Source of the DNA: Burkholderiaceae bacterium | GTDB lineage: Bacteria > Pseudomonadota > Gammaproteobacteria > Burkholderiales > Burkholderiaceae_C | Assembly (NCBI GenBank): GCA_014879655.1 | Contig: JACSRS010000117.1 | Coordinates: forward strand, 1-64,000 | Length of the DNA stretch: 64,000 nucleotides | Direction: 5' to 3' | Shown: in pieces, positions 20,809 to 35,840 of the stretch | Position numbering within the stretch: the stretch's first letter is position 1 | Layout: each line of letters opens with the position of its first letter | Notes under the pieces: model-generated | What the model was told of the DNA's origin: nothing | Database searches by the model: none | The model's input: the letters and a program-made list of their open reading frames with translations, nothing else | Position numbers and translations under genes: made by a program

Positions 20809-22563
<1,755 letters not shown>

Positions 22564-22621
22564 TCATCCAGGCGGCGGCCCTTTCGGGTCGCCGCACATG
22601 AAACCATTCGAGGAGACACCC

Positions 22622-22933
22622 ATGATGAAGACACTTCTGATCGCCAGCGCTGCCCTGCTCGCCTTTAGCGCGCATGCGGCCACAGCCGACGAAATCCTCA
22701 ACAAGTCCGGTTGCATGGCCTGCCATGCCAAGGACAAGAAACTGGTCGGCCCGTCGTTCAAGGACATTGCGGCCAAGTACAAGGGGCAACCCGATGCCGT
22801 CGCCAAGCTGATGGAGAAAGTCCGCAAGGGCGGCTCCGGCGTCTTCGGCCCGGTCCCGATGTCCCCAAACGGACCTGACAAGATCAATGACGCCGACCTG
22901 AAAGTGGCGGTGGAGGCGATCCTGAAGTCCTGA
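22622..22933 (+). CDS. nirM: Class I c-type cytochrome (c551/c8 family), NirM-like
   Basis: Small periplasmic electron carrier of 103 residues. A signal peptide ends AHA; the heme site is CMACH and the distal methionine is in GPVPMSPN, the typical cytochrome c551 layout (KSGCMACHAKDKKLVGPSFKDIAAKY). A GAGGAG ribosome site lies just before tandem ATG codons (22622 and 22625). Immediately downstream of nirS, it should donate electrons to cd1 nitrite reductase and perhaps to the CuA subunit of the nearby heme-copper enzyme. The partner assignment is by context. Confidence 0.9.
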   Translation: MMKTLLIASAALLAFSAHAATADEILNKSGCMACHAKDKKLVGPSFKDIAAKYKGQPDAVAKLMEKVRKGGSGVFGPVPMSPNGPDKINDADLKVAVEAILKS

Positions 22934-22936
22934 CCC

Positions 22937-24211
22937 ATGGTGTTGCGGTTCTATATGTACCGCTTGCCCGCTGCAGCCTGGCTGCTGGCGGGCATTTTTT
23001 TGCTCGCACCGCCATGCGCGGCTGAACCGACCGCCCTCGGGCCGGGATTCGAGCACCCGAACGCATTGTGGCTGGTCGTCGAAGGCGACGGCCACACACT
23101 GACGCTGCTCGACGCCGCGGCCATGGTGCGGGTGCATCAGGCGACATCAGCCGCCCCCTTGCGCGGCGCCATTGAGACCAACGACGACGGGCGCTTTGCC
23201 TACCTGCTAGCCGGCGCCGGGACCATAGTCAAATACCAGTTGCCGCAGCTGGTTGCGGTCGCACAAACCGATGTCGGCGCCGTCCGCACCTTCGGCCTTT
23301 CAGCCGACGGTCGATGGCTGCTGGTGGCATTGAACGGGCCTGACCGTCTGGTGCTGCTCGACGCCAATCTGGTTCAGGTTCGCATTTACCCGGTGACCAC
23401 GCTGGATGGCGCTGCGACCGGGCGCGTCAGCAGCATCTTGCGAAACGCGCCCAGAAAAAGCTTCATCGCCACACTCGGCGGCATCCATGAACTCTGGGAG
23501 ATTTCCTGGGATCCGCAGGCGGAGCCGATCTTCGACGGTCTGGTGCACGACTATCGAATGGGTGAAGGTGTCGCGTCCAGCGGCTTTCTGGGCATCCGCC
23601 GCACGCCACTTGACGCGATCATGCCGGACGCCCTGCTGTCGATGGACGGGACGAGCGTCGTCGGCACCACCGAGCCGGCGGCCGCTCGTCCTTCGCGCAC
23701 CGAAGTAATCAACCTGAACATCCGCCGGCGCATTGCCACGCTGGCTCTCGCACCGGGCAATGCAGCAGCAGCCGTGCACGGGAACGGGCGCGAGTATCTT
23801 GCAACCGTCGACGCGGCGGGAGCGGTTGTCTTACAGGACCTTCGCACCGGGCAGGTCGCGCAGACCGTCCGCTTGTCTTCGCCCGTCGCAGCCCTGCAAG
23901 CCACGCTTTCTCCGCCGGCGTTGTGGCTGCTGTCCGGCGCCAGCCCGGCGGGGCCGTTCGATCTGGACTGGATCGATCTGTCAAAGCCGCAATCGCCTCG
24001 CACCTTGTTGGCCGGCATCGAAGGGCCGGCCAGCATGCAGGCCGGTTCTGGCGAAAGAGGCCTGATGCTGGTCAGCGGCAGCGAGCCTGTCAACCTGCGC
24101 TATTTGGCAAGTGATGCGGCCCGCCCGGCCGGGCCAATGGTGGTGCTGGGCCTGCGCGGTTTGCGCAGCCTGGGCGTCCAGATTGAATGGCCTTCGTCGG
24201 CCGATCGCTGA
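22937..24211 (+). CDS. NirF-like cytochrome d1-family beta-propeller protein
   Basis: An exported 424-residue protein with signal peptide (ends CAA) and repeated beta-propeller blades without a heme c motif. The segment VSSILRNAPRKSFIATLGGIHELWEISW...DYRM aligns by eye with the NirF region that in Pseudomonas reads VVGLVDAPGQRFVFSLFDAGEIW. NirF is required late in d1-heme synthesis. The protein is divergent and its C-terminal third (GPFDLDWIDLSKPQSPRTLLAG) is not obviously NirF, so it might instead be a d1 insertion or maturation factor. It begins three bases after nirM, clearly in the same operon. Confidence 0.6.
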   Translation: MVLRFYMYRLPAAAWLLAGIFLLAPPCAAEPTALGPGFEHPNALWLVVEGDGHTLTLLDAAAMVRVHQATSAAPLRGAIETNDDGRFAYLLAGAGTIVKYQLPQLVAVAQTDVGAVRTFGLSADGRWLLVALNGPDRLVLLDANLVQVRIYPVTTLDGAATGRVSSILRNAPRKSFIATLGGIHELWEISWDPQAEPIFDGLVHDYRMGEGVASSGFLGIRRTPLDAIMPDALLSMDGTSVVGTTEPAAARPSRTEVINLNIRRRIATLALAPGNAAAAVHGNGREYLATVDAAGAVVLQDLRTGQVAQTVRLSSPVAALQATLSPPALWLLSGASPAGPFDLDWIDLSKPQSPRTLLAGIEGPASMQAGSGERGLMLVSGSEPVNLRYLASDAARPAGPMVVLGLRGLRSLGVQIEWPSSADR

Positions 24212-24220
24212 AGTCGCCCG

Positions 24221-24928
24221 TCAGCGACCTTGCCATTGCTGCAGACCGAACTTCGACAGCCGATCCGCATCGGGAATGCGGATGTTGCGCCGGTCGACCT
24301 CGATCAGACCGGCCTCGGCCAGTTCATGCAAAACCTTGGAAAAATATTCGGGCGTCATTGACAGACGCGACGCAATGGTCGCCTTGCTCACCTGCAGCGC
24401 CACCAGCAACGGTCCCTGATTGCCCGCCTCCGGCGCTTCGCGCAGCAGATAGCCAATCACACGCTGCACACCGTTCTGCAATGAACACGACTCGATGTCG
24501 CTGATCAGCCGGTGCATTCGCCGGGAAATGCCGGCCAGCATCTGCAACGCCAGCCGCGGTTCTCGCGCAATCTCGGCCAGCATGACGCGCTTGCCGACCG
24601 TCAGCAACAGCGTGGCAGCCAATGCCTGCGCATTGACGATGTAGGGGCGACCGAGAAACATCACGGCCTCGGCAAAGCAGTTGCCGGGGCTGACCAGTTC
24701 GATCACCTTCTCGTGGCCATCGGGCGAAATCGCGAACAGTTTCACCTGCCCGGAAATCACCGCATGAAACTCCTCGCAGGGCTGCCCGACACGAAAAACC
24801 ATGTCGCTGCGCCCGAATTCCCGTATCTGGCAACCCTGCGCAATCCGGTTCAGCTCGTCAGGCGCCAGGTCATGAAACAGCGGCAACGAAGCCAGCATGC
24901 GGGGCACCGGGTAAGCCGAGGTATCCAT
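24221..24928 (-). CDS. Crp/Fnr-family transcriptional regulator, DNR-like
   Basis: A 235-residue activator with an N-terminal cyclic-nucleotide-binding-type sensor fold (LPLFHDLAPDELNRIA...FHAVISGQVKLFAISPDGHEKVIELVSPGNCFAEAVMF), a long dimer helix and a C-terminal HTH (VSKATIASRLSMTPEYFSKVLHELAEAGLIEVDRRNIRI). The recognition helix keeps an E-x2-S-K pattern like FNR/DNR, consistent with TTGAT half sites such as the one upstream of nirS. It lacks the N-terminal cysteine cluster of FNR, so it is not an iron-sulfur oxygen sensor; NO sensing through heme, as in DNR, is plausible. The start shares a base with the preceding stop (TGATG), making it the last gene of the minus-strand operon. Confidence 0.88.
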   Translation of the reverse strand: MDTSAYPVPRMLASLPLFHDLAPDELNRIAQGCQIREFGRSDMVFRVGQPCEEFHAVISGQVKLFAISPDGHEKVIELVSPGNCFAEAVMFLGRPYIVNAQALAATLLLTVGKRVMLAEIAREPRLALQMLAGISRRMHRLISDIESCSLQNGVQRVIGYLLREAPEAGNQGPLLVALQVSKATIASRLSMTPEYFSKVLHELAEAGLIEVDRRNIRIPDADRLSKFGLQQWQGR

Positions 24929-25770
24929 CACTGACTCCTGACCGGGGGCGGCGAATGCCGGATTGCGGGCCACACATTCTGTCGCACAAAAAGGCTGACG
25001 AGCAAGAGCGCCAGCGCCGGCGACAGCAAGGCATGGCTCAGCAGCAGCGCACCGGCCCGCTGGGGCGGCATCATCGCCAGGTAACCTGTCAGCATTTGCG
25101 CGCCCAGCAAGGCCACCAGCGCGAGGCGCAAACGGCTCGCACATCGGTCCGCCACGGGCAACAACAGCATCGAGCCACAAAGGACCAGCCAAATGGCCAG
25201 CGTCATCAGATGCAGCAGCACTGGCAGTCGGGCGCCCTGGGCCAAAGCGGCACTAGCGGCTGCCCCGGTGGCGGTGTGCAGCACAAACGCTGCCACAGTT
25301 GCCCGCTGAAAAAGATCGGATCGGCCCCATCGGTCCGCGTCGGCAAGCATGATTTCTCGCAGCCACCAGAAGCCCATCAGCAACGCCATGCCAAAACCCA
25401 CATTGGCAATGGTCACCCATGGCAACCGGTAGCCGGTGGTCATCGGGCCGATCACCGATAGCGTCAATGTGGAAATTGCGACCCATGCAACCGGCAACCA
25501 GGCTGCCCGGCTCGATCGGCCGTACATCCAGCACAGCACGGCAGCGGCCAGCGTCAGCAGCGCCACGCAGGAGGCAGCCATGCGATGCACAAGGCGAATG
25601 ACCTTTTCAACGCCGGGCGCCAGCGTTGATGTGGCAACGCCCTGCAGGTCAAAGACGGTTTCGATCCGCAACACCATGCTGGCGATCAGCACGAGCAGTC
25701 CCAGCAGCGTTCCAGCCATGCCGATCCGACGCAGGTTCGACCGCCAGGCCGCCGCTGGCGCATCGCTCAT
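24928..25770 (-). CDS. CtaA/COX15-like membrane protein
   Basis: A polytopic protein of 280 residues with eight predicted helices, resembling heme A synthase (CtaA/COX15). Histidines occur at helix positions expected for heme binding (LVHRM, VLHTATG, LLHLMT, LSHALLS). However, the E-x2-H motif that carries the catalytic glutamate in true heme A synthases reads R-L-V-H here, so heme A formation is doubtful. It overlaps the upstream heme-copper subunit gene by four bases and the downstream regulator gene by one. With heme O synthase in the same operon it may tailor or carry heme for the two heme-copper subunits, or it may be a membrane b-type subunit. Confidence 0.65.
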   Translation of the reverse strand: MSDAPAAAWRSNLRRIGMAGTLLGLLVLIASMVLRIETVFDLQGVATSTLAPGVEKVIRLVHRMAASCVALLTLAAAVLCWMYGRSSRAAWLPVAWVAISTLTLSVIGPMTTGYRLPWVTIANVGFGMALLMGFWWLREIMLADADRWGRSDLFQRATVAAFVLHTATGAAASAALAQGARLPVLLHLMTLAIWLVLCGSMLLLPVADRCASRLRLALVALLGAQMLTGYLAMMPPQRAGALLLSHALLSPALALLLVSLFVRQNVWPAIRHSPPPVRSQ

Positions 25771-27221
25771 GGCAGGACTCCCGCCTTTTTGCGACCGCCT
25801 GCCGGCACCGATCCGCGCAGCGACCGGATCACGATCACCAGGAACATCACTCCGCCAACGATGGCGACCAGCCCACCCAGCCCCATCAGACCCATGCCCC
25901 AGATCTCTTCACGCGAACGCAGAACCTGCTCGGCACCAGCGACCTTTCTTTGCACACCGTAGCCGCCGGACCAGACCAGTCCGGTGATGTGCATCAGCTG
26001 GCCGAAGCCGTAGACCAGCGGCTGCCAGGCGGCCGCTTTCGACCGGGGCGCGGGGTAGCCCAGCCTAGGCAGCAGGTGAAAGACCATGCCCATCATCGCC
26101 AGCGTCACGCCAACGATGCAGCCGTGGTAATGCGCAGGGATGCGCACGTTGCTGCCCGAAATCAGCAAACCGATGACGCCACCGGCGGAAAACAGGCACA
26201 ACGAAGCCAGCACGCTGGTCTGTAGCGGCCGGGCCGTCGAGCTCAGCCCGCGAAGCGGCAGCACGGTCCACAGCACCGCAATCGCCACGGGCGCAATCGA
26301 CAGTCCACCGCCATATCGCATCAGCAGTGTCTGCATGCGGTGGTGCTCGACGGACGTGGGGTCGTATGCCAGATAGGTGATGGGCGTCAGGAAAACCGCC
26401 AGCAGCGTGATGGCAAAAAGCAGGGTGACCACACGTGGCGAGAGCCGAAAGCCGCCGGCCAGCGCCGAGGACAGCCAGATCCAGCCGATCAGCATCAGCA
26501 AGGTGTAGGCGAATTGCAGCACGTGCCCCCCGCCCCAGAACAGCAACTCGTAGTAGGCCCGCGGATCAAGCGAAAGCGGGATCCGCGTCCACGACCAGCC
26601 GAATGCAATGATAGCGACCGCCGTGGCCACCATCGCAGCGTTCAGACCGAAGCGCAAGGCACCATCGCCGCTGACGCGCATGCCCACCGGTGTCGCGGCC
26701 AGCATCGAGCGCAGGCACAGCAGCGAAAACCCGCCGCCGAACAGCAACAGCCCCGTCATGAATATCGGCCCCTGCAGAACCGGTATGTAGTTGGCCATGA
26801 CCGGGGTTGCCCGCTCCAGAAAGGGAGACAACGTCATCGCCAGGGTTCCCAGCGTCGCCAGCACCAGGGCCGTACGTGCCAGCGGCATCAGCCTGGGCGT
26901 ACTGCTCAACGACCAGAGCGCGCCGCCAAAAGCCAGAAACCAGACCAGCACCGACAGATCGACGTGCACGACCAGCGCGACCCGGAAGAAATCCGCAACG
27001 GGAAACAGTTGCTGCAGCTGCGGCGTTCGCGACAGCACCAGCAAGACTGAGAACAGGCCCGAAGCCACCAGCGCAAACAGGCCCAGCATCAACCAGGCCA
27101 TCGCAAGTGAGCGACGGGCGTCATTCGGAATTGCCAGATCAAAGGAGTAGGCTCGCGCCGAAACTGCCGGGTCGCCAACGGGCAACGAGGCAGGCGTTTG
27201 ATCAGTTTTCAGTTCAGTCAT
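25767..27221 (-). CDS. Divergent heme-copper oxidase superfamily subunit I
   Basis: A 484-residue protein with about twelve membrane helices. It keeps the full metal-ligand set of the superfamily: His86 (helix II, VVHVDLSV), His233 (helix VI, GGGHVLQF), His293/294 (EHHRMQT) and His364/366 (IPAHYHG). The position four after His233, where A- and B-type oxidases have the cross-linked tyrosine, is Phe237; two tyrosines 7 and 10 residues before HH could mimic the cbb3 helix VII tyrosine. The ATG at 27221 overlaps the cytochrome b-MvhD gene by eight bases. No subunit II lies next to it. It could be a NO or oxygen reductase or a quinol-linked relative; I cannot assign a known subfamily. Confidence 0.7.
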   Translation of the reverse strand: MTELKTDQTPASLPVGDPAVSARAYSFDLAIPNDARRSLAMAWLMLGLFALVASGLFSVLLVLSRTPQLQQLFPVADFFRVALVVHVDLSVLVWFLAFGGALWSLSSTPRLMPLARTALVLATLGTLAMTLSPFLERATPVMANYIPVLQGPIFMTGLLLFGGGFSLLCLRSMLAATPVGMRVSGDGALRFGLNAAMVATAVAIIAFGWSWTRIPLSLDPRAYYELLFWGGGHVLQFAYTLLMLIGWIWLSSALAGGFRLSPRVVTLLFAITLLAVFLTPITYLAYDPTSVEHHRMQTLLMRYGGGLSIAPVAIAVLWTVLPLRGLSSTARPLQTSVLASLCLFSAGGVIGLLISGSNVRIPAHYHGCIVGVTLAMMGMVFHLLPRLGYPAPRSKAAAWQPLVYGFGQLMHITGLVWSGGYGVQRKVAGAEQVLRSREEIWGMGLMGLGGLVAIVGGVMFLVIVIRSLRGSVPAGGRKKAGVLP

Positions 27222-28791
27222 CGTGAACAACATCGGCGTGAAAAACCATGTTGGATGCATCCGCCGGCGGGAGACCTCGGCGAAAAGCAAGCAGTTCGAA
27301 GCGTGCACGCTCGGGCCGGTTGCCGCACCATAGCACGGCCAAACGCTCGCGCGGCGCGGCGGCGCGCAACCTCGGCTCGCGCTCGCCGGCCAGGCGCTGA
27401 CGGACCCATCGGTCGCCCAGACGGTATTCGCAGTCGGTCTCGCGACAGCCCGTCAGCATCACGCCTGCAGCGCCGTGGCGCGTGGCGTATTCCAGAAAGG
27501 ACGGCGGCACCATCGCGGCACATTCAACCGCGATCACCGCCGTCTGACCATCGGCAAGCGCTTCAAATTCACCGGCCTGGCGGCAGGCGAAGACCACCAC
27601 CGGACGGGCACCGTCGATGGCCGCCAGTTTCTGCTGCAGTTCCCGGCGCAATTCGGCCAGTGGCGTATCCGGCATCTCGATGCCCGACACGATGGCCTCG
27701 ATGCTTCTGAAAGGCGTGGCCGACGGGCAGGAGCCGACGCAGATCCCGCAGGCCGCGCACTGCTCGGCGTTCACGACCGGTTGCCGGGCGTGCCGGCTGC
27801 GATCGGTGCGAGGCACCATGTCGATGGCGCCAAAAGGGCAATCCGCAGCACAGCGAGAACAACCGTTGCAGTTGCCCAGGTCCACCTTCGCTGCGGATCG
27901 GACATCGATGCGCCGAACCGGGATCAGCGGCAGCGCCGACAGTACCAGCGTCAGACCCAGTGTCAACGCCCACAAGCCCGCCGGCGTGACCCGTTCCATC
28001 ACCGGATGCAGCCACATGAAAAACCAGTCCAGTGAAAGCGTGGCCGAAACATTGCCGGCGTCGGCCGGGCCCAGGCTTTGCGCGGGAACGAGCAGCGACA
28101 GCAGCGACAGCATCAGCAAGCTGCCAACCGTCAACGATGCCGGCGGCCATAGCCGTGCCAGCGCGATCCGCTGGACATGAATCCAGACGCCAGCCAGCAG
28201 GATCAGCGGAACACCGATGTGAATGAACATGATCAGCGAGAAAAAACGGTCGTTCAGCGCCTGCGCGGTCAGCACGTTGCGCGACAGTTCTTCTGCGGCG
28301 ATGGGCAATGCCTCCAGCCATTGCGCGGTTGCCGCCAGGCTGTAGATCGCACGCTCGTCCCACAACAGCCAGAAGCCGGCAATGCCCGCCACCCCGGTGA
28401 GCCACAGCAGCGGCACACCAGTTAGCCACGAATACCAGCGGACCCTGCGGAAATGCCCCCGCGCGGCCTCCCGGATCAGGTGGAGAACCGAAACGACAAG
28501 GAAGGCATCGGCGCCGTAGCGATGCAGGCCCCGCAGCAGCCGTCCGGTGTACCAAGGGGCATCTTCGAGCCGCTTTCCAGACTCGTAAGCGCCAGCCACA
28601 CTGGTGTCGTAGAACGTGTAGGCAATGGTGCCGGTGGCGACGACGACGATCAGGAACAGAAACGCCAGCCCGCCCAAGTGGCGCCAGGGGTTGCGCGACG
28701 GCGCGAATGCCAGATCAAAAAAGGCGGATATCGATTCGTCAATCGACCGGACGGTCCGCCCCAATCGAAAGCTCCTGGCCGCCGCTGACAA
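27214..28791 (-). CDS. Cytochrome b / 2x[4Fe-4S] ferredoxin / MvhD-like fusion
   Basis: A 525-residue fusion. Residues 1-290 form a bc1/b6f-type cytochrome b with both bis-His heme pairs (His90/His104 and His191/His205, each 14 apart), a WDER cd-loop and a degenerate Qo motif LDWFF (254-258) where complex III has PEWY. Residues about 300-360 hold two CxxCxxCxxxCP clusters (Cys308/311/314/318 and 345/348/351/355). Residues about 397-500 resemble MvhD, the [2Fe-2S] subunit linking hydrogenase to heterodisulfide reductase, with Cys403, 424, 449 and 454 kept. The start is TTG at 28791, four bases after the previous stop; the start is uncertain. It should pass electrons between membrane quinone/heme b and a ferredoxin-like partner. 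Confidence 0.85.
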   Translation of the reverse strand: MSAAARSFRLGRTVRSIDESISAFFDLAFAPSRNPWRHLGGLAFLFLIVVVATGTIAYTFYDTSVAGAYESGKRLEDAPWYTGRLLRGLHRYGADAFLVVSVLHLIREAARGHFRRVRWYSWLTGVPLLWLTGVAGIAGFWLLWDERAIYSLAATAQWLEALPIAAEELSRNVLTAQALNDRFFSLIMFIHIGVPLILLAGVWIHVQRIALARLWPPASLTVGSLLMLSLLSLLVPAQSLGPADAGNVSATLSLDWFFMWLHPVMERVTPAGLWALTLGLTLVLSALPLIPVRRIDVRSAAKVDLGNCNGCSRCAADCPFGAIDMVPRTDRSRHARQPVVNAEQCAACGICVGSCPSATPFRSIEAIVSGIEMPDTPLAELRRELQQKLAAIDGARPVVVFACRQAGEFEALADGQTAVIAVECAAMVPPSFLEYATRHGAAGVMLTGCRETDCEYRLGDRWVRQRLAGEREPRLRAAAPRERLAVLWCGNRPERARFELLAFRRGLPPADASNMVFHADVVHDD

Positions 28792-28794
28792 TTT

Positions 28795-29313
28795 TCAGCC
28801 CTGAATGAACACAAAGCCGCCGGAACCGGCCAGGAAATCGACGATCAACACCTGCCCGGGTTTCAGATCAACCTCCTGCTCGAAGTGGTAATTGAACAAG
28901 CCGTCCGGGCCATCGGCCAGGCGCGCGCTGATGCGATGCTGACCCGCCGGAATGGCCAGGCGCCGGTAGACCGTGGCAGCACCGTCTTTGCGCAGGCCCA
29001 GGGGCGGGGTTTTCACCTTGAACAACTGCTGGCCGTCGATGTCCAGTTCGACCAGCACATCCGAGCGCTCGCGCGGACAGTCCTGCCGCGTTCGCATGTT
29101 CGGCGCCAGCTTGGCCAGTTCAGCTTCCGAGCGTTCGCGGCATTCGTGCCTGAGCTGCGCCGGATGGCTGAACGACAACTTGAGCACCGCCTGGTCATCC
29201 TCCAACTGGCGGTAGGCCGGCGAGATCGAGAAGTAGCCGATGAACGCCGCAAACGCCAGATAGGCCAGCGCCTGCAACACCACGCGCATCGCCTTTGGCA
29301 AAGCTTCAGTCAT
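28795..29313 (-). CDS. Unknown membrane-anchored protein between the two cytochrome b fusions
   Basis: A 172-residue protein with one N-terminal membrane helix (about 10-30, VVLQALAYLAFAAFIGYFSI) and a beta-rich domain containing two cysteines (Cys58, Cys79), probably a disulfide in the periplasm. No heme, Fe-S or nucleotide motif is visible. A strong GGAGG precedes the ATG at 29313, which overlaps the upstream reductase-fusion gene by eight bases; the MvhD-fusion gene starts four bases after its stop. This tight position between two partner genes suggests an assembly factor or accessory subunit of the cytochrome b complex. I do not recognise the family. Confidence 0.7.
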   Translation of the reverse strand: MTEALPKAMRVVLQALAYLAFAAFIGYFSISPAYRQLEDDQAVLKLSFSHPAQLRHECRERSEAELAKLAPNMRTRQDCPRERSDVLVELDIDGQQLFKVKTPPLGLRKDGAATVYRRLAIPAGQHRISARLADGPDGLFNYHFEQEVDLKPGQVLIVDFLAGSGGFVFIQG

Positions 29314-31267
29314 GCGAACCTCCGAGTTTGACGAGCGCCGACGCGGCACCTTCCACGGGCCGGTGGGGCGTCAGATGGAATGCGTCCGAAAAGCAATCGG
29401 CGCTTGAAATGCCGCGCGCCATGAAGGCGGGATAGGCCGCCTCGACCATGCCAACCGAGCCGCAGGCATAGACCTGATGGGTAGAGAGGTCCGGAAAATC
29501 GGCGAGGATGGCTTCGTGAACCAGCCCGGTGCGCCCCTCCCAGTGATCCCCTGCTTCCGGCTCAGACAGAACCGGAATGAACGTGAAGTTGGCGTGCTCA
29601 CGGGCCCATTCTTCAGCGAGATCGCCCAGATACAGGTCGCGACGACGCCGCACACCCCAGTAGAGGATCATTGGCCGCTGCAAGCCGGTGCGGAACGCGT
29701 GCTCCACCATGCTCTTGACCGGTGCAAACCCGGTTGAACCCGCCACGAAGATGACGGGCTTGTCGCTGTCGTCCCGGAGTGTGAACGCACCCAGCGGTCC
29801 TTCAAACGTCAGGCGGTCGCCGGTTTTCATCGTTTCGAACACGGCCGGGGTAAAGCGGCCACCGTCGATGTGGCGAATCTGCAGTTCGATTTCGGCCGTG
29901 TCGGGCCGCGGCGCGCTGGCAAAAGAAAAGCTGCGCCGGCTGCCGTCGGGCAACAAAATATTGATGTACTGCCCTGCGCGATAGGCGAGCGGGGACCCTT
30001 CCACCCGCAGCACCAGTTGCATCACATCTTCGGTCAGCCGGTCCATCCGGGTAACCGTCGCGGTGTACTGCCGAACCGCCGTGCCGGCTTTGCCCTCCGC
30101 CGGCACATAGGAAATCTCCAGATCGGAAACCGGTTGCGCGCAGCACAGAAGGGTCTTGCCGGCTGCCCGCTCCACTTCGGTCAATGCATCGGGCTGAAAG
30201 CCCAGCAAGCGCACCTCGCCATGCAGGACAGTGCATTTGCAGACACCACACGCCCCGTTTCGACATTCGTAGGGCATGGGCCGGCCTTCCCGCAAACCGG
30301 CATCGAGCAAGGTTTCGCCGGCACGTACCTGAATGATCAGGTCGTCAGGGTGCAGCGCAAGACTGCGGGCCTGCAATGCCCCGCTTTTCGGGCGTCGGTG
30401 CAGCCATGGCAGCACCGTGACCAGCAGCGTTGCGCCGATCACCAGCAACCATAGGGTCTGCGGACCCCAGCGCTGGATCAAGGCGTAGACCGGCAGATAG
30501 AACCAGTCGAACTGCAGCAACGGTACCGTCGTCGCCATGTCGGCCGGGGCCTGGCTGAGCGCGGGCTTGACCAGCGACAGCAAGATCAGCACGGCCAGCA
30601 ACGTGACAGCCAGTTCCTTCGGTGGCCGCGTCCTGGCATCCGGCACGCGCTGGGTGTGCACCCACAGCACCGCGAGCAGCGTCAGCGGAATACCGATGTG
30701 CATGAAGGCCAGCAGCGAAAACAGCCGGTCACTGACGTTCGCGTTCGAAATGAAATTGCGCGCCATCGAACCGCCGATGACGGGCAGCACGTCCATCCAC
30801 TCGGTCGTGGTCGTGACGACGAACTGCGACAAGCGGTCCCACGGCAACATGTAACCGTTGACACCCGAGACATAGGTGAGCCAAAGCAGCGCCACCCCGG
30901 AAACCCAGGAAAACCAGCGAAAGCCGCGATGGCGGTTGAAGACGAAATGCCGCGCCATGTGCAACAACACAACCAGGACCAGCGCGTCCGATGCGTAGCG
31001 GTGCAGACTGCGGATGATCCCGCCCAGGTAGAAATGACCGTGCGTCACCGCTTCAACCGAGCTGTAGGCATGTACCACACTGGTCTCGAAAAACGCATAC
31101 AGGTACAGCCCCGTCAGCATCACGATCCAGACCAGGAAGTACGCCACCGTTCCCAGGTTGTAGAGCGGATTGAGGCGGTCACCGAACACCGCGTTCAGTG
31201 AACGTTCGAGCGCGAGAAACAGCTTTTGCCCAAGAGGGGGCGATTGGGATTGATTGTTGGGTTCCAT
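29306..31267 (-). CDS. Cytochrome b / [2Fe-2S] ferredoxin / FAD-NAD(P) reductase fusion
   Basis: A 653-residue fusion. Residues 1-290 are a b6f-like cytochrome b with heme ligands His89/His103 and His190/His204, a PWDR cd-loop and FDWFY (253-257) in place of PEWY. Residues about 305-390 are a plant-type ferredoxin (Cys335, Cys340, Cys343, and Cys375 or 376). Residues about 398-630 are a ferredoxin-NADP reductase module: RSFSFAS flavin motif (445-451), GSTGFAP nucleotide motif (510-516) and CGSVG (602-606). It should couple NAD(P)H to the quinone pool or the reverse. I recall a cytochrome b/b6 with fused flavin and NAD(P) domains described from Candidatus Accumulibacter. A GTG at 31270 is an alternative start. 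Confidence 0.88.
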   Translation of the reverse strand: MEPNNQSQSPPLGQKLFLALERSLNAVFGDRLNPLYNLGTVAYFLVWIVMLTGLYLYAFFETSVVHAYSSVEAVTHGHFYLGGIIRSLHRYASDALVLVVLLHMARHFVFNRHRGFRWFSWVSGVALLWLTYVSGVNGYMLPWDRLSQFVVTTTTEWMDVLPVIGGSMARNFISNANVSDRLFSLLAFMHIGIPLTLLAVLWVHTQRVPDARTRPPKELAVTLLAVLILLSLVKPALSQAPADMATTVPLLQFDWFYLPVYALIQRWGPQTLWLLVIGATLLVTVLPWLHRRPKSGALQARSLALHPDDLIIQVRAGETLLDAGLREGRPMPYECRNGACGVCKCTVLHGEVRLLGFQPDALTEVERAAGKTLLCCAQPVSDLEISYVPAEGKAGTAVRQYTATVTRMDRLTEDVMQLVLRVEGSPLAYRAGQYINILLPDGSRRSFSFASAPRPDTAEIELQIRHIDGGRFTPAVFETMKTGDRLTFEGPLGAFTLRDDSDKPVIFVAGSTGFAPVKSMVEHAFRTGLQRPMILYWGVRRRRDLYLGDLAEEWAREHANFTFIPVLSEPEAGDHWEGRTGLVHEAILADFPDLSTHQVYACGSVGMVEAAYPAFMARGISSADCFSDAFHLTPHRPVEGAASALVKLGGSHD

Positions 31268-31315
31268 CACCTCAGGAGCCGGCGGAGCCGGACAGCATTG
31301 CGAAGCCGGGTCGGC

Positions 31316-32239
31316 TCAGACGCTCGTGCGTTCAGTCAGTTGCGGGGCCTTGAGCGTGGGTTCCGGGGAAGCCTTGCGGCGCGCTCGACGCCTGTTGACG
31401 CATTCAGCGGCAAAAAACCAGATCATCGCCAGCGCGAAAGTGACACCGCCGGCAATCTCGATCAGCAACCCGTACTTGACCTTGTAGGTGCCGGTGGACG
31501 GATCGTAGACCGTGCAGAGAATGCGAACGCGGTCCACGAGTTCATCCAGATTGCTCGGCTGGGCGACAGGCGACCGGTTCAGCAGTTCCTTCAGGGGCTC
31601 GCCAATGGCGCCGGCGGTCAGTTCTTCGCCGTAGATCTGCCGATAGATGCGCCCCTGGCCATCGAGCAACGTCACCTGCAGCACATGATCGAACCCGGCC
31701 GGCGTCGCGACCTGGCTGAAACCGAAATCCCGCATCAGCGGCTGGACGATGGAAGCGTGCGGGCTGAGAAATTCCCAGTTGGGCTGGTCGATCCGGTGTT
31801 GCCGGGAAAAGGCCTTCATCGCCTGCGGGGAATCGGCCGGCTGGTTGAAGCCGATACTGATGACGTTGAACTGACGGGTGCCAAACACCTCGCGACCCGC
31901 CTCCACGGCGCGTTGCAACGAGCGCGTGGTCAGCGGGCAGACCTGAAAACAACCGGTATAGATGAAACTGACGAGCAGTGGCTTTCCCCGGTATTGCGAC
32001 AGGCGGACAGCAAGGCCCTCGCGGTCCAGCAACGTGAAGTCGGAAACGGTTCGCCCGACAACACCCTGACTCAACCGCAATGCGGCGGTCTGATCCAGCG
32101 CCGGCAGCCTGGTTGCAGCCTCTCCGGCCCCGGTCTGGGCCTGTGCGGCGCCCCCTTGCAGGCCAGCAACCAGCGGCAAACAAAGCCACCAAGCTCGCAA
32201 AAAACCACCAATGTGACCGAACGCCCTCCCCGTGCTCAT
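31316..32239 (-). CDS. SCO1/SenC-type copper chaperone
   Basis: A 307-residue thioredoxin-fold protein for CuA assembly. The copper site is complete: Cys97 and Cys101 in TGCFQVCP and His185 in FDHVLQV. An N-terminal signal or anchor comes first, and there is an additional C-terminal membrane helix (IEIAGGVTFALAMIWFFAA) with a basic tail, which is unusual for ordinary SCO proteins. CAGGAG precedes the ATG. It sits directly in the operon of a CuA subunit II and a B-type-like subunit I, the same partnership as SenC with NorSY in ammonia oxidisers (family knowledge). It very probably metallates the CuA site of the subunit encoded at 34945-35484. Confidence 0.88.
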   Translation of the reverse strand: MSTGRAFGHIGGFLRAWWLCLPLVAGLQGGAAQAQTGAGEAATRLPALDQTAALRLSQGVVGRTVSDFTLLDREGLAVRLSQYRGKPLLVSFIYTGCFQVCPLTTRSLQRAVEAGREVFGTRQFNVISIGFNQPADSPQAMKAFSRQHRIDQPNWEFLSPHASIVQPLMRDFGFSQVATPAGFDHVLQVTLLDGQGRIYRQIYGEELTAGAIGEPLKELLNRSPVAQPSNLDELVDRVRILCTVYDPSTGTYKVKYGLLIEIAGGVTFALAMIWFFAAECVNRRRARRKASPEPTLKAPQLTERTSV

Positions 32240-32260: not shown

Positions 32261-33166
32261 CTATCGCAACAGCCCGTCGACCGTGGCGCCCGCCAGCAGC
32301 AGCCCCAGTTGAAGCAGAGATGCAAAGAATGAACCCATCGCGGTCTGCCGTGACGGACTCTGCGCGAGCTTCCAGGCTTTGAAAACAAAATACCCGCCAC
32401 CGGCTAGCGCTGACAAAAGGTAGATCGTGCCCGCGCCAAACCAGAAAGGCAGCACAGACACCACGGCCAGCGCGATCGTGCTCCACAACACGATCACCGC
32501 CGCCCTCGGCACGCCCACCACCACCGGCAACATCGGAACGCCGGCAGCCTTGTATTCGGCCTGATTGGCAATGGCCAGGCTCCAGAAGTGCGGAGGGGTC
32601 CAGAGGAACAGCACCGCAGCCAGCAACCACGCGAACGCTCCCGGCACCGGGTCAACGGCAGCGGCGCCCGCCAGCACGGCGAAGCTGCCGGCCATGCCGC
32701 CGACGACGATGTTCAGCCAGCTTCGACGTTTGAGCCAGACCGTGTAGACCACAGCATAGAAGAAGGCGCCAAGGAACACGTAGAGAGCGGAGACCGGGTT
32801 GAGCCACCTCGCGGCAGCGCCGACCGAGCCGGCCAGCATCAGCCCCATCACCACCAGCCAGAACGGCGAGCGGACCAGCGCACCGGTGACAAAGGCCCGG
32901 CTGCGTGTCCGTGCCATCAGACGGTCGCTCTCGTATTCGTGATACTGGTTGAACGCGCCGGCGCTGGCAGAAGCGGTCAGCACGGCGAGGCCGAGCAGCA
33001 GCATGGCGCCTGCGCCGGGGCCCCGCCCTGGAACCACCACCATGCCCACCAGCGCGGTGAGCATGATCATGAAGCCGATACGCAGCTTGAACAGGCTGAC
33101 CACACTGCGGGCTGTTTGCAGGAAACCGGCGGAACCAGGCTGGCTGGCAGACAACTGCGGATTCAT
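32261..33166 (-). CDS. ctaB: Protoheme IX farnesyltransferase (heme O synthase)
   Basis: A UbiA-superfamily prenyltransferase of 301 residues converting protoheme to heme O with farnesyl diphosphate. It has about nine membrane helices and the family motifs NQYHEYESDRLMARTRSR (the N-x3-E-x3-D diphosphate site) and WTPPHFWSLAIANQAEYKAAGVPMLPVV. A strong AGGAGG lies before the ATG. Between the subunit I gene and the SCO gene, it implies that at least one of the two heme-copper subunits carries heme O or a derivative. The gene order subunit IV-II-I-ctaB-sco is that of a self-contained oxidase-type operon. Confidence 0.93.
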   Translation of the reverse strand: MNPQLSASQPGSAGFLQTARSVVSLFKLRIGFMIMLTALVGMVVVPGRGPGAGAMLLLGLAVLTASASAGAFNQYHEYESDRLMARTRSRAFVTGALVRSPFWLVVMGLMLAGSVGAAARWLNPVSALYVFLGAFFYAVVYTVWLKRRSWLNIVVGGMAGSFAVLAGAAAVDPVPGAFAWLLAAVLFLWTPPHFWSLAIANQAEYKAAGVPMLPVVVGVPRAAVIVLWSTIALAVVSVLPFWFGAGTIYLLSALAGGGYFVFKAWKLAQSPSRQTAMGSFFASLLQLGLLLAGATVDGLLR

Positions 33167-33239: not shown

Positions 33240-34934
33240 TCAACTCAGGCCCCAGACCTGCGACAGGTACTTCCAATTGATGAAGTAGTACAGCACGAAC
33301 GAAACCAGGAAGACCATGGCCAGAACGAACGTGCCTGGCGCGGCGAAACCGGCCGAACCGTAGCTTTGCGCAACCACCGTCGGGGTGGCGGGCAAGACGG
33401 GTGTCGTCTTTGCGCTGACAGCGCCGGTATCGAGCTTGCGACCCCAGAGGATCGATCCCACCGTGATGTAGATATACAGGGCGCCACCGATGATGGCCGC
33501 CATACCGGCCACACCGACCAGCCCCATCAGCAGATACGCTGCACCGGGCCACTCGTAAGCCTGCGCCGCGCCGCTGAAGGCCATGTCCCAGTGCCGCCGC
33601 GAGACCCCGAGCGTGCCCGCTCCCATCATCACCAGACAGAAGAAGTACATCGAGAAACCGAACAGGTAGGGCTGGTACTTTGCAAGGCCAGGATTGATCA
33701 TTTCCCGGCGGAAGAGCACCGGGATCAGGAAATAGGTCAACGCCATGAACGACAGCGTGGTGCCAACCACCACCGTGGCATGGAAGTGCCCCGGGACATA
33801 GATCGTGTTGTGAATGATCATGTTCAGTTGTTCGGTACCCATCATCACGCCGGAGATGCCGCCGAGGAAACCGAACCCGATCAGCGAGATGAACACACCG
33901 GAGAAAACCGGGTTGCCCCAGGGCGCCTTGCGCAGCCATTCGAAGAGTCCGTTGTTCAGCCCCTTGGCACGCTGCGCCACCTCGATGGCACCGGGAATCG
34001 TCAGACCGTGGATCATCGACGCCAGCACGGCAAAGTACATGAAGTAGCTGGTGTTGACCACTTTCCATGCCGTGCTGACGCCGGGATCGGCCAGCAGATG
34101 GTGGGCGCTGGCAAGTTGCAGGAACAGGATGTAGAGCAGGAACGCGCCGCGGCTGACACGCTCGGACATCGGTTTGGCGCCGAACGCAATGGCTGCCACC
34201 GCATACCAGATCGAAATATGCGCCGCCACGTTGATCTGCTGCGACGAATGGCCGAACGCCCACCAGATCGTCCGGTAAACCAGGGCATCCACCGACTGGA
34301 TGACGCCCATCGACATCAGCCAGGTCGGAATCAGGATGATGGCGCCTGAGGTGATGGTGAAGACTGCGATGATCGCAGCGGTGATCGCGCCGAACGTCAC
34401 CAGTGGCACCGATCCCTTGTAGGTCCGCTCGCGCCGGGCGACGACCAGGGTGCCGAAGAAAATGAAGCAGGCGATCAGTGCGCCAACCGCAAACAGGATG
34501 AGTCCCAGGTAGAACGAAGGCGCCGCCATCATCGGCACGTACGACGTCATCATCACACTGGAGCTGCCCTGGAACACGGCCACGTTGTTGACCACTGCGC
34601 CGATCAGCATCAGCGCATACGCCAGCCATGCAAATCGAGGCGTGGCGATCCTGCTTCTGAGCAGGGTGGACGAACAGAAATAGAGAACCGCTACCTCGAA
34701 AAAAATGATCCAGAAGATCAGCATGTCGATGCCGTGGGCCGTCAGCACCATGTAGAACGTGTCTGGCGCCAGCCAGTGCAGAGCCGGCCAGCGGGTCGCA
34801 ACGACGCCGATGGCCAGAATGCCGCCGATGAGCAGCGCCACGACGGCCGTCACGGCGTTGACGATCATCAGTCTTTCGGCCTGTGATTCAAACTGCAGGC
34901 CGGAGCGGGGGCATGTGCGGTAAGTTGTCGTCAT
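33240..34934 (-). CDS. norY: Heme-copper NO reductase-like subunit I (sNOR/NorY-like)
   Basis: A 564-residue protein with about thirteen membrane helices and the complete ligand set: His67 (TAHGIDM), His229 (FGHSSQQ), His278/279 (ASAHHLLADPG) and His383/385 (VPGHFHATV). HHLLADPG and the overall layout match B-type (ba3-like) oxidases, but the oxidase signature GHPxVY reads GHSSQQ, so the cross-linked active-site tyrosine is replaced by Gln233. Loss of that residue is the hallmark of nitric oxide reductases in this superfamily. Pairing with a CuA subunit II and SenC matches sNOR (NorSY-SenC). The ATG at 34934 has AAGGTGG upstream; a GTG at 34943 is possible. Reduction of NO to N2O is the favoured role; an atypical oxygen reductase is not excluded. 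Confidence 0.8.
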   Translation of the reverse strand: MTTTYRTCPRSGLQFESQAERLMIVNAVTAVVALLIGGILAIGVVATRWPALHWLAPDTFYMVLTAHGIDMLIFWIIFFEVAVLYFCSSTLLRSRIATPRFAWLAYALMLIGAVVNNVAVFQGSSSVMMTSYVPMMAAPSFYLGLILFAVGALIACFIFFGTLVVARRERTYKGSVPLVTFGAITAAIIAVFTITSGAIILIPTWLMSMGVIQSVDALVYRTIWWAFGHSSQQINVAAHISIWYAVAAIAFGAKPMSERVSRGAFLLYILFLQLASAHHLLADPGVSTAWKVVNTSYFMYFAVLASMIHGLTIPGAIEVAQRAKGLNNGLFEWLRKAPWGNPVFSGVFISLIGFGFLGGISGVMMGTEQLNMIIHNTIYVPGHFHATVVVGTTLSFMALTYFLIPVLFRREMINPGLAKYQPYLFGFSMYFFCLVMMGAGTLGVSRRHWDMAFSGAAQAYEWPGAAYLLMGLVGVAGMAAIIGGALYIYITVGSILWGRKLDTGAVSAKTTPVLPATPTVVAQSYGSAGFAAPGTFVLAMVFLVSFVLYYFINWKYLSQVWGLS

Positions 34935-34944
34935 CGTGGCCACC

Positions 34945-35484
34945 TTATTTCACGTAGAGCCGGCTCACCATCGTGTGGTGATTGATGCCGCAGAATTCGT
35001 TGCATACCAGGTGGTAGGTGCCAGACTGGTTGGGTGTGACGGTCACGACATGCTCGTAGCCGGGAACGATCTGGATGTTGATGTTCACCGGCTGCAGCGA
35101 GAAGCCGTGGTTGTAATCCATCGAGGTCAGGTGAAGGCGATAGGTCTTGCCCTTCTCCAGTTCCAGAATGGGCCAGAAATTCCACAGGCGCGCGACCAGG
35201 TAGACGTCGCTGCCGGCTGGCGGGGCCACCACCGGGATCTTTTCTTCGGTTTCGGTGCGCACGGTGTACTTGTCCACCATCGCCTGGGCTTTGGCCGAGA
35301 ACTTCTCGGGCGTCGTCTTGTAGGTCTCGGTCGAGAGGTTCTGCTGTCCCCAGACATGCCAGCCGACCATCATCGCGAACATGATCAGACACCAGATCAG
35401 CGAAATCACGATCCAGGTACCCTCGACCCTGTCGAGCGGATGTTTCCACCAAAGTCGTTCGGCGGGCGGCAATATGGCGCTCAT
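34945..35484 (-). CDS. norS: CuA-containing subunit II (sNOR/NorS-like)
   Basis: A 179-residue membrane-anchored cupredoxin, the electron entry subunit. One N-terminal helix (about 23-45) is followed by the CuA domain with a full ligand set: His126 (YNHGFS) and Cys161-x-Glu163-x-Cys165-x3-His169-x2-Met172. The short single-helix form resembles subunit II of B-type enzymes. GCAGGAG precedes the ATG; the stop is ten bases before the NorY-like ATG. It would accept electrons from a small c-type cytochrome such as the one encoded beside nirS. Confidence 0.88.
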   Translation of the reverse strand: MSAILPPAERLWWKHPLDRVEGTWIVISLIWCLIMFAMMVGWHVWGQQNLSTETYKTTPEKFSAKAQAMVDKYTVRTETEEKIPVVAPPAGSDVYLVARLWNFWPILELEKGKTYRLHLTSMDYNHGFSLQPVNINIQIVPGYEHVVTVTPNQSGTYHLVCNEFCGINHHTMVSRLYVK

Positions 35485-35527: not shown

Positions 35528-35707
35528 TTACTTGGCCAGGGGCACCGTCAGGATGTCGATGACACCCCACAGCGAATACACGATCATCGGAATCATCACG
35601 CCCAGAAAGAGCAGCAGAAACGGGTTGTCCAGCAACTGCTGCATGAAGGGTACGGGTTCGTTCGGGTCTTCTGCGTGAGGGTCCTGCTTGAGGTCTTGCT
35701 GTGCCAT
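35528..35707 (-). CDS. Small single-helix subunit of the heme-copper complex
   Basis: A 59-residue protein with an acidic soluble N-terminus (about 1-25) and one membrane helix (FLLLFLGVMIPMIVYSLWGVIDIL), like subunit IIa/IV peptides of B-type oxidases. The ATG at 35707 has CAGGAGACCGTC upstream; the open frame reaches 35824, but that extension is basic and would begin inside the operator-like palindrome. It is the first gene of the eleven-gene minus-strand operon and lies 43 bases from the CuA subunit gene. Confidence 0.75.
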   Translation of the reverse strand: MAQQDLKQDPHAEDPNEPVPFMQQLLDNPFLLLFLGVMIPMIVYSLWGVIDILTVPLAK

Positions 35708-35813
35708 GACGGTCTCCTGATTCGACGCTGACCCGGGTGCAACACGCGATCGGGCATGGCGGGACTTTGGCGGAACCTCGCTCAACTTTCCTTCACACAG
35801 ATTAAGAATTCCA

Positions 35814-35840
35814 AATACATTCACATAAAGTGAATGTATT
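35814..35840. promoter_or_regulatory. 27-base perfect palindrome upstream of the minus-strand operon
   Basis: AATACATTCAC (35814-35824), spacer ATAAA, GTGAATGTATT (35830-35840). It is AT-rich in a GC-rich genome and about 107 bases before the first gene of the respiratory operon. It is not an FNR/DNR box. Its half site recalls, but does not match, the NsrR type. It is a likely operator for a nitrosative-stress or redox regulator not encoded in the window. Confidence 0.55.

Follow-up and report, generated by a model that had tools for sequence, protein, structure and literature searches.

A cytochrome b-MvhD fusion encoded in proteobacterial eNOR operons, a candidate electron-transfer subunit

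What does an MvhD domain do on a membrane cytochrome b? The question is raised by a gene on the reverse strand (27214..28791) of a 64,000-nucleotide stretch of DNA, hereafter the window, from a Burkholderiaceae bacterium (contig JACSRS010000117.1 of assembly GCA_014879655.1, a draft genome of 227 contigs and 96% completeness). Its product, CytbMvhD, is 525 amino acids long, counted from a TTG start, and joins a cytochrome b, two [4Fe-4S] cluster motifs and an MvhD domain. The gene lies in an operon with the genes of eNOR, an enzyme that reduces nitric oxide (NO) to nitrous oxide (N2O); this setting was absent from the earlier note that had pointed to the fusion. The probable task of CytbMvhD is to carry electrons between the cell interior and this N2O-making enzyme. 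For the more specific proposal, that it is a dedicated electron-transfer subunit of proteobacterial eNOR which connects an Fe-S pool in the cytoplasm with quinone and eNOR, we judge the case to be evenly balanced.

We sought to establish what the protein consists of. A bc1-type cytochrome b with helices A-F, recognized in an AlphaFold2 model and by VIA-align, takes up residues 1-297 (27901..28791, minus strand), and Pfam Cytochrome_B matched at residues 33-207 (60.9 bits). It is followed by a dicluster ferredoxin domain with two CxxCxxCxxxC motifs (residues 302-357; 27721..27888, minus strand), found by alignment and by Pfam, where Fer4_7 matched at residues 307-357 (35.8 bits). The C-terminal MvhD/FlpD domain (residues 398-505; 27277..27600, minus strand) was assigned by profile, alignment and fold; the FlpD family PF02662 matched residues 412-490 with 41.5 bits (E 1.5e-10), against a cut-off of 22.3. 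When the C-terminal fragment was compared with the PDB by phmmer, the MvhD chains 9sw2_D (E 5.1e-7) and 5odc_D (E 4.4e-5) were found. The last three of Cys403, Cys424, Cys449 and Cys454 align to MvhD cysteines in these comparisons, and Cys403 was assigned by position to what we take to be its MvhD counterpart. The four cysteines thus match, at the level of sequence, those of an MvhD-type [2Fe-2S] site.

The candidate ligands are conserved in all homologues examined. They comprise the ferredoxin cysteines (308/311/314/318 and 345/348/351/355), the four MvhD cysteines and the haem histidines 90, 104, 191 and 205. All 12 cysteines and four histidines are invariant in the 21 sequences from the same order, window included, and in all 64 sequences of alignment A2, a set that shares some members with the first; they are also kept in 8/8 tandem copies of CytbMvhD from four further genomes. 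Cys489 and the remaining histidines are not conserved in the order-level sequences. Alignment A2 contains the window and 63 of 80 named loci, from which near-duplicates, truncated sequences and some others were omitted by choice; alignments A3 and A4 took in 52 and 31 of the 80. The named loci are the best 80 of at least 542 related stretches (tblastn, E 1e-3), picked by similarity to the query, and they cover most of it. Cytochrome_B, Fer4 and FlpD were all matched in 64/64 A2 members (FlpD at E 1e-3). An accidental or mis-assembled fusion without function, for which nothing speaks beyond the draft state of the genome, is refuted by this conservation and by the number and extent of the relatives, and we give it next to no credence. 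The earlier note, which had proposed the fusion from the letters alone, proved right in its domain order and exact in the numbers of its four MvhD cysteines; a missing MvhD match or unconserved cysteines, which it had named as fatal, were not what we found.

The structure prediction that the note had also called for agrees. The AlphaFold2 model of the whole protein (64 sequences; pLDDT 89.2, pTM 0.89) places cytochrome b helices A-F first, then the Fe-S part, then the MvhD domain. The 50 Foldseek matches listed for it were all complex III-type entries, and VIA-align gave Z 20-24 against bc1-type chains over residues about 18-297. Since these rows covered mostly the cytochrome part, the C-terminal fragment was folded separately (53 sequences; pLDDT 90.5). 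Its four top Foldseek matches were the MvhD-type chains 8rvu_F, 5odc_D, 5odh_D and 7bkb_F (TMt 0.67-0.72), and the HdrA chain 5odc_A was among the weaker ones (rmsd 2.0, 90 columns, E 6.6e-3).

Two further features bear on where electrons could enter and leave. Lysine and arginine make up 17.5% of presumed cytoplasmic loop residues, versus 3.2% of presumed periplasmic ones (64 sequences), which predicts a cytoplasmic position for the Fe-S/MvhD part. From helix order and loop charges, we infer that H90/H191 lie on the periplasmic side and H104/H205 on the cytoplasmic side. When residues 140-297 were searched as a profile (32 sequences), subunit IV of the b6f complex was matched (2e74_B, E 2.9e-5), and in this alignment LDWF/Y at residues 254-257 (LDWF in the window; 28021..28032, minus strand) falls on PEWY, the Qo-site motif, with different residues. 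D255 is kept in 63/64 and W256 in 64/64 A2 sequences. Sequence and model thus predict a bc1-type cytochrome b that binds two haems and has a Qo-like motif, along with the parts of a continuous electron wire: the MvhD [2Fe-2S] cluster, two [4Fe-4S] clusters, haem bH, haem bL and a predicted periplasmic quinone site.

What does the operon encode besides CytbMvhD? In order of transcription, all on one strand, it comprises a 98-aa ORF, subunit II with its CuA motif, the catalytic subunit COX1a, the haem O synthase CyoE, an SCO-like copper chaperone, a paralogous cytochrome b (CytbFNR), a small protein (p184), CytbMvhD, and a divergent haem-copper-oxidase-like subunit (COX1b). COX1a (33240..34943, minus strand; Pfam and motif) reads GHSSQQ where the aligned oxidase 7deg reads GHPVVY. 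In Table A4 of PMC8756737, glutamine at the position of the active-site tyrosine marks eNOR, and sNOR is listed with asparagine; because COX1a has glutamine at this diagnostic position, it was assigned to the eNOR type. An identification of COX1a/COX2 as sNOR (norSY-senC) was dropped on the same ground. The GHSSQQ motif occurs in 64 of 74 COX1a ORFs (nine others are short and one differs). Subunit II (34945..35484, minus strand; Pfam and motif) carries C-x-E-x-C-G-x-x-H-x-x-M, as do 65/65 subunit II ORFs. In a passage of PMC8879329, eNOR is taken to be the same as the B-family "ba3-a1" type, and, citing others, the authors report that it acts as an NO reductase with electrons from cytochrome c. 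The gene for a cytochrome cd1 nitrite reductase, NirS, a source of NO, lies nearby (20842..22563, plus strand; PF02239, 498.4 bits). Given this neighborhood and the eNOR literature, COX1a presumably has NO reductase activity.

The genome has six COX1-family matches: two read as cbb3-type, two as overlapping halves of one aa3-type enzyme, and the others are COX1a and COX1b. No cNOR or qNOR was seen among them, which, beside NirS and eNOR, counts in favor of the dedicated subunit. For NosZ, TIGR04244 and TIGR04246 matched only the CuA subunit, far under their cut-offs. With NirS and eNOR encoded but neither NosZ model matched above its cut-off, the genome looks like that of a nitrite-to-N2O reducer. 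NirS forms a cluster on the strand opposite the operon (20842-24211, plus strand) with a cytochrome-d1-like protein and a cytochrome c of small size.

Next, we asked whether CytbMvhD and eNOR occur together more often than expected by chance. Within the order, full-length CytbMvhD was found in 21 of 300 genomes (44-50% identity, the window's own aside) and eNOR in 23; all 21 fusion genomes are among the 23, while the overlap expected by chance is about 1.6. In the two genomes with eNOR alone (G022 and G100), CytbFNR lies between the SCO and p184 genes. In a sample of the phylum, which has genomes in common with that of the order, the fusion was found in 34 of 398 genomes, eNOR in 30 and both in 29 (about 2.6 expected by chance); in the sole genome with eNOR only (G367), the contig stops right after the SCO gene. 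The named loci are titled Beta-, Gamma- and Alphaproteobacteria, among them Comamonas granuli (NBRC 101663), Piscinibacter caeni (MQ-18) and Herbaspirillum. The nearest named relatives (about 56-62% identity) are Rhodoferax and beta-proteobacterial metagenome-assembled genomes, with which the label "betaproteobacterial" in the earlier note is compatible. SCO was found in 76 of the 80 loci, p184 in 75, COX1a in 71, subunit II in 65, CyoE in 58, COX1b in 51, CytbFNR in 44 and NirS in 13. The nine loci without COX1a sit at or near a contig start: eight begin at most 100 bases from the first operon gene found, and one (L062) begins 1.2 kb before it. Directly upstream of CytbMvhD lies SCO in 58/80 loci and p184 in 19/80; directly downstream lies p184 in 57/80 and COX1b in 18/80. 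The distance matrix of CytbMvhD correlates with those of five partner genes (r 0.62-0.90; 40-73 loci), and none of 999 permutations reached any of these values. On these sequence comparisons, the association of CytbMvhD with eNOR is well supported.

An association of genes can also arise when a protein is merely co-regulated with its neighbors. CytbMvhD might be a general ferredoxin/NAD(P)H:quinone oxidoreductase of denitrifying cells with no physical tie to eNOR. The same fold and cofactors would suffice for this, CytbFNR would do likewise with NAD(P)H, and in some genomes the fusion occurs without an eNOR match. The strength of the co-occurrence (21/21 and 29/34) speaks the other way, as does the conserved slot beside the eNOR genes across loci titled Alpha-, Beta- and Gammaproteobacteria, and we consider this explanation doubtful.

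The paralog encoded two genes upstream offers a clue to function. CytbFNR (29306..31270, minus strand; 654 aa, Pfam and NCBIfam) is 39% identical to residues 25-291 of CytbMvhD. It has a similar membrane part with a DWFY motif, and carries a [2Fe-2S]-FAD-NAD(P) reductase module where CytbMvhD has its two [4Fe-4S] clusters and MvhD. CytbFNR occupies the slot of CytbMvhD in two genomes; since it can replace or accompany CytbMvhD, the two proteins seem to share a task. This suggests that each joins a cytoplasmic carrier (NAD(P)H, or an Fe-S or flavin protein) to the side of the membrane that serves eNOR. A similar fusion of cytochrome b with an NAD(P)H flavin reductase was reportedly described in an Accumulibacter metagenome paper of 2006. 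One family includes four genomes (G431, G493, G515 and G560; loci L146-L149) in which two CytbMvhD genes stand in tandem, as if in place of the CytbFNR and CytbMvhD pair, which suggests a cytochrome b pair or heterodimer.

Could the Fe-S/MvhD part instead sense NO or the redox state, and so gate eNOR or feed the assembly and repair of its cofactors? Fe-S clusters are NO-sensitive, and the operon does include maturation genes (SCO-like and CyoE). Set against this are the cluster and haem ligands and D255, conserved as would be expected of a continuous electron wire, and the FNR module that takes the place in two genomes. A role as sensor or assembly factor is therefore very unlikely.

Herein, we describe how a dedicated subunit might work. 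Both the direction of the electrons and their donor are inferred; input from the cytoplasm is the likeliest direction, and we would put no more weight for it than against it. The electrons would be delivered by a carrier in the cytoplasm, be it ferredoxin, flavodoxin, or NAD(P)H acting through a soluble partner; they would enter at the [2Fe-2S] cluster of MvhD and pass through the two [4Fe-4S] clusters to haem bH and then haem bL. At the periplasmic face they would reduce quinone, or the CuA side directly, and eNOR would spend them on the reduction of NO to N2O. NO reduction would thus be fed by a route around complex I and bc1, which would be useful when NO blocks these complexes.

Several observations weigh against a dedicated subunit of this kind. 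In the passage of PMC8879329, eNOR is reported to draw its electrons from cytochrome c. Flow from the cytoplasm to the periplasmic face would spend membrane potential. On one Thermus and one Thermomicrobium plasmid, the eNOR loci, which read GHGAQQ, lack a cytochrome b over about 9 kb, so that the enzyme can do without the module. In five genomes of the phylum sample (G416, G432, G440, G515 and G560; 69-96% complete), the fusion is not accompanied by any eNOR match; the operon is cut by contig edges in two of these, G515 and G560. One genome of the order (G153) has CytbFNR and a fusion fragment at a contig edge (49% identity, residues 19-109; not counted among the 21), with no eNOR match at E 1e-60. 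The correlations of distance matrices can also be explained by gene linkage alone. Finally, none of the conserved gene clusters near CytbMvhD in the 36 loci that lack CytbFNR stood out as a soluble cytoplasmic donor; these loci include short contigs where CytbFNR may be cut off. A protein with a haemerythrin domain (for example at L118:12080-12478), a possible NO or O2 binder, was found by clustering near the operon in 16 of these 36 loci and in 0/44 others.

The reverse direction was also considered. Transfer from quinol to ferredoxin at a periplasmic site would run uphill in both redox and membrane potential, so only bifurcation would be workable. In that case, quinol oxidized at the Qo-like site would give one electron to eNOR (through CuA or cytochrome c) and so to NO, and the second would travel from bL to bH and leave by the Fe-S/MvhD or FNR outlet; low-potential ferredoxin or NAD(P)H would thereby be regenerated at the expense of NO reduction. 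The bc-type Qo motif region is indeed kept, both outlets are cytoplasmic-type domains, the CuA acceptor is encoded within the same operon, and bifurcating complexes are known to contain MvhD and ferredoxin of the HdrA type. Conversely, the Qo glutamate is changed to aspartate, CuA is not a mobile head domain, Pfam and NCBIfam recognized no c1 gene in the operon, and we know of no precedent for quinol bifurcation of this kind. The six Rieske matches of the genome all lie on contigs other than the window's 89-kb contig, one of them next to an ordinary bc1 cytochrome b (C224). Rieske matches were present in 10/10 genomes of named loci, counted over each genome as a whole. We regard bifurcation as unlikely, at most on a par with a general oxidoreductase.

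How does CytbMvhD compare with known systems? With MvhD/FlpD, the [2Fe-2S] subunit of Mvh/Fdh-HdrABC complexes, it shares the profile, the fold (8rvu_F, 5odc_D) and the four cysteines; unlike them, it is fused to a membrane cytochrome b, and no HdrA-like gene was found in its own genome. A search of this draft genome with the HdrA2 model NF040770 gave 15 matches, of which CytbMvhD was the best (61.8 bits) and the others were short Fe-S or nucleotide-binding pieces; no second FlpD gene was found in the genome. A bifurcating complex of the Mvh/Hdr type in this genome was rejected on these grounds. The interpretation in the earlier note is accordingly divided: the link to a membrane quinone site is favored by the bc1-type fold, the PEWY-like motif and the predicted cytoplasmic Fe-S/MvhD part, while the methanogen-style context is not supported.

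A closer likeness is found in the C-terminal ferredoxin-MvhD cassette of HdrA2/QmoB. Residues 300-490 align to it as one block, corresponding to positions 571-750 of NF040770 (NCBIfam; 66 bits, far under that model's cut-off for a whole HdrA2), and the cassette is 30% identical over 194 columns to ORF L140, an HdrA2-like protein (369 bits) that is presumably QmoB. Unlike HdrA2, CytbMvhD is without the FAD part of HdrA, and its cassette sits on a bc1-type cytochrome b. As no long HdrA/QmoB-like match was found in its own genome, a QmoABC complex, which calls for QmoA/B together with QmoC, was not identified there. Four HdrA2-like ORFs (about 740-790 aa, two of them scanned) that end in a ferredoxin-MvhD cassette come from other genomes of the order (L139-L142) and are presumably QmoB-like; similar partial matches were listed for further genomes of the order. 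With the cytochrome b of bc1/b6f complexes, CytbMvhD shares helices A-F and the four haem histidines, and at the place of PEWY it has the PEWY-like LDWF/Y; it differs in the Fe-S/MvhD part beyond helix F and in the missing Rieske gene on its contig. Quinone-linked membrane complexes are not entirely new as partners of MvhD-like domains, QmoB being an example. In the eNOR literature, the enzyme is marked by glutamine at the tyrosine position, CuA and SCO in the operon, and the passages on eNOR in these sources mention no cytochrome b-MvhD subunit. No description of the fusion or of its link to eNOR was found in the literature searched, which did not include the main eNOR paper (PNAS 2024) or Figure 5 of PMC6431628, a drawing of a ba3-a1 operon that may show the gene. 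We file the fusion as known parts in a new arrangement, with the cassette joined directly to a bc1-type cytochrome b inside an eNOR operon.

The other genes of the operon are closely packed. Starts and stops overlap or nearly touch between CytbFNR and p184 (ATG), p184 and CytbMvhD (TTG), and CytbMvhD and COX1b (ATG). p184 (28795..29349, minus strand; true ATG start likely at 29313, overlapping the upstream gene) has one N-terminal membrane helix, judged by eye, and no match in Pfam or NCBIfam. Its Cys70 and Cys91 are invariant (25/25), and His138 (23/25), Met85 (21/25) and His62 (20/25) are mostly kept; it may carry a metal or a disulfide. It adjoins a cytochrome b gene in most loci, and some loci have two copies. 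COX1b (25767..27308, minus strand; PF00115, 43.4 bits, and motif survey) likely starts at about 27221, overlapping the CytbMvhD stop. Its HVDLSV, GH and both PAHYHG histidines are kept in 21/21 sequences. A copper/iron B site would call for a histidine pair, which is not conserved here (first histidine 19/21, second 9/21), and COX1b may be a relative of the catalytic subunit that binds haem only. It gave no PDB match at E 0.1, and its sole NCBIfam match was at E 0.32, so no identity as gNOR, cNOR or cbb3 emerged.

The SCO-like gene (31316..32239, minus strand) was labeled by comparison with NZ_CP156080.1, where an "SCO family protein" holds the matching operon position; its NCBIfam matches were only weak and thioredoxin-like. 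CyoE (32261..33166, minus strand) matched TIGR01473 with 241.8 bits (cut-off 210.3). The 98-aa ORF (35528..35824, minus strand) had no family match and was found in 28/80 named loci. Relatives of a 280-aa hydrophobic protein (24928-25770, minus strand; no Pfam match) lie near the operon in 16/80 loci, and a COX15/CtaA-like gene does so in 19/80. A phage origin was rejected (no PHROGs match), as was a plasmid origin: 19 of 72,556 plasmid records were matched by tblastn, and only one, a Defluviimonas plasmid with the operon order of the window, covers more than 80% of the query.

An Fe-S relay of anaerobic electron-bifurcating complexes, such as those of methanogens, is now tied to a little-studied enzyme that makes N2O, a greenhouse gas. 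The source of the electrons of eNOR, and whether NO reduction is coupled to ferredoxin or NAD(P)H, thereby become testable questions. The cytochrome b-MvhD fusion also provides a marker gene for proteobacterial eNOR operons, in which the catalytic subunit often bears the annotation "cbb3-type cytochrome c oxidase subunit I".

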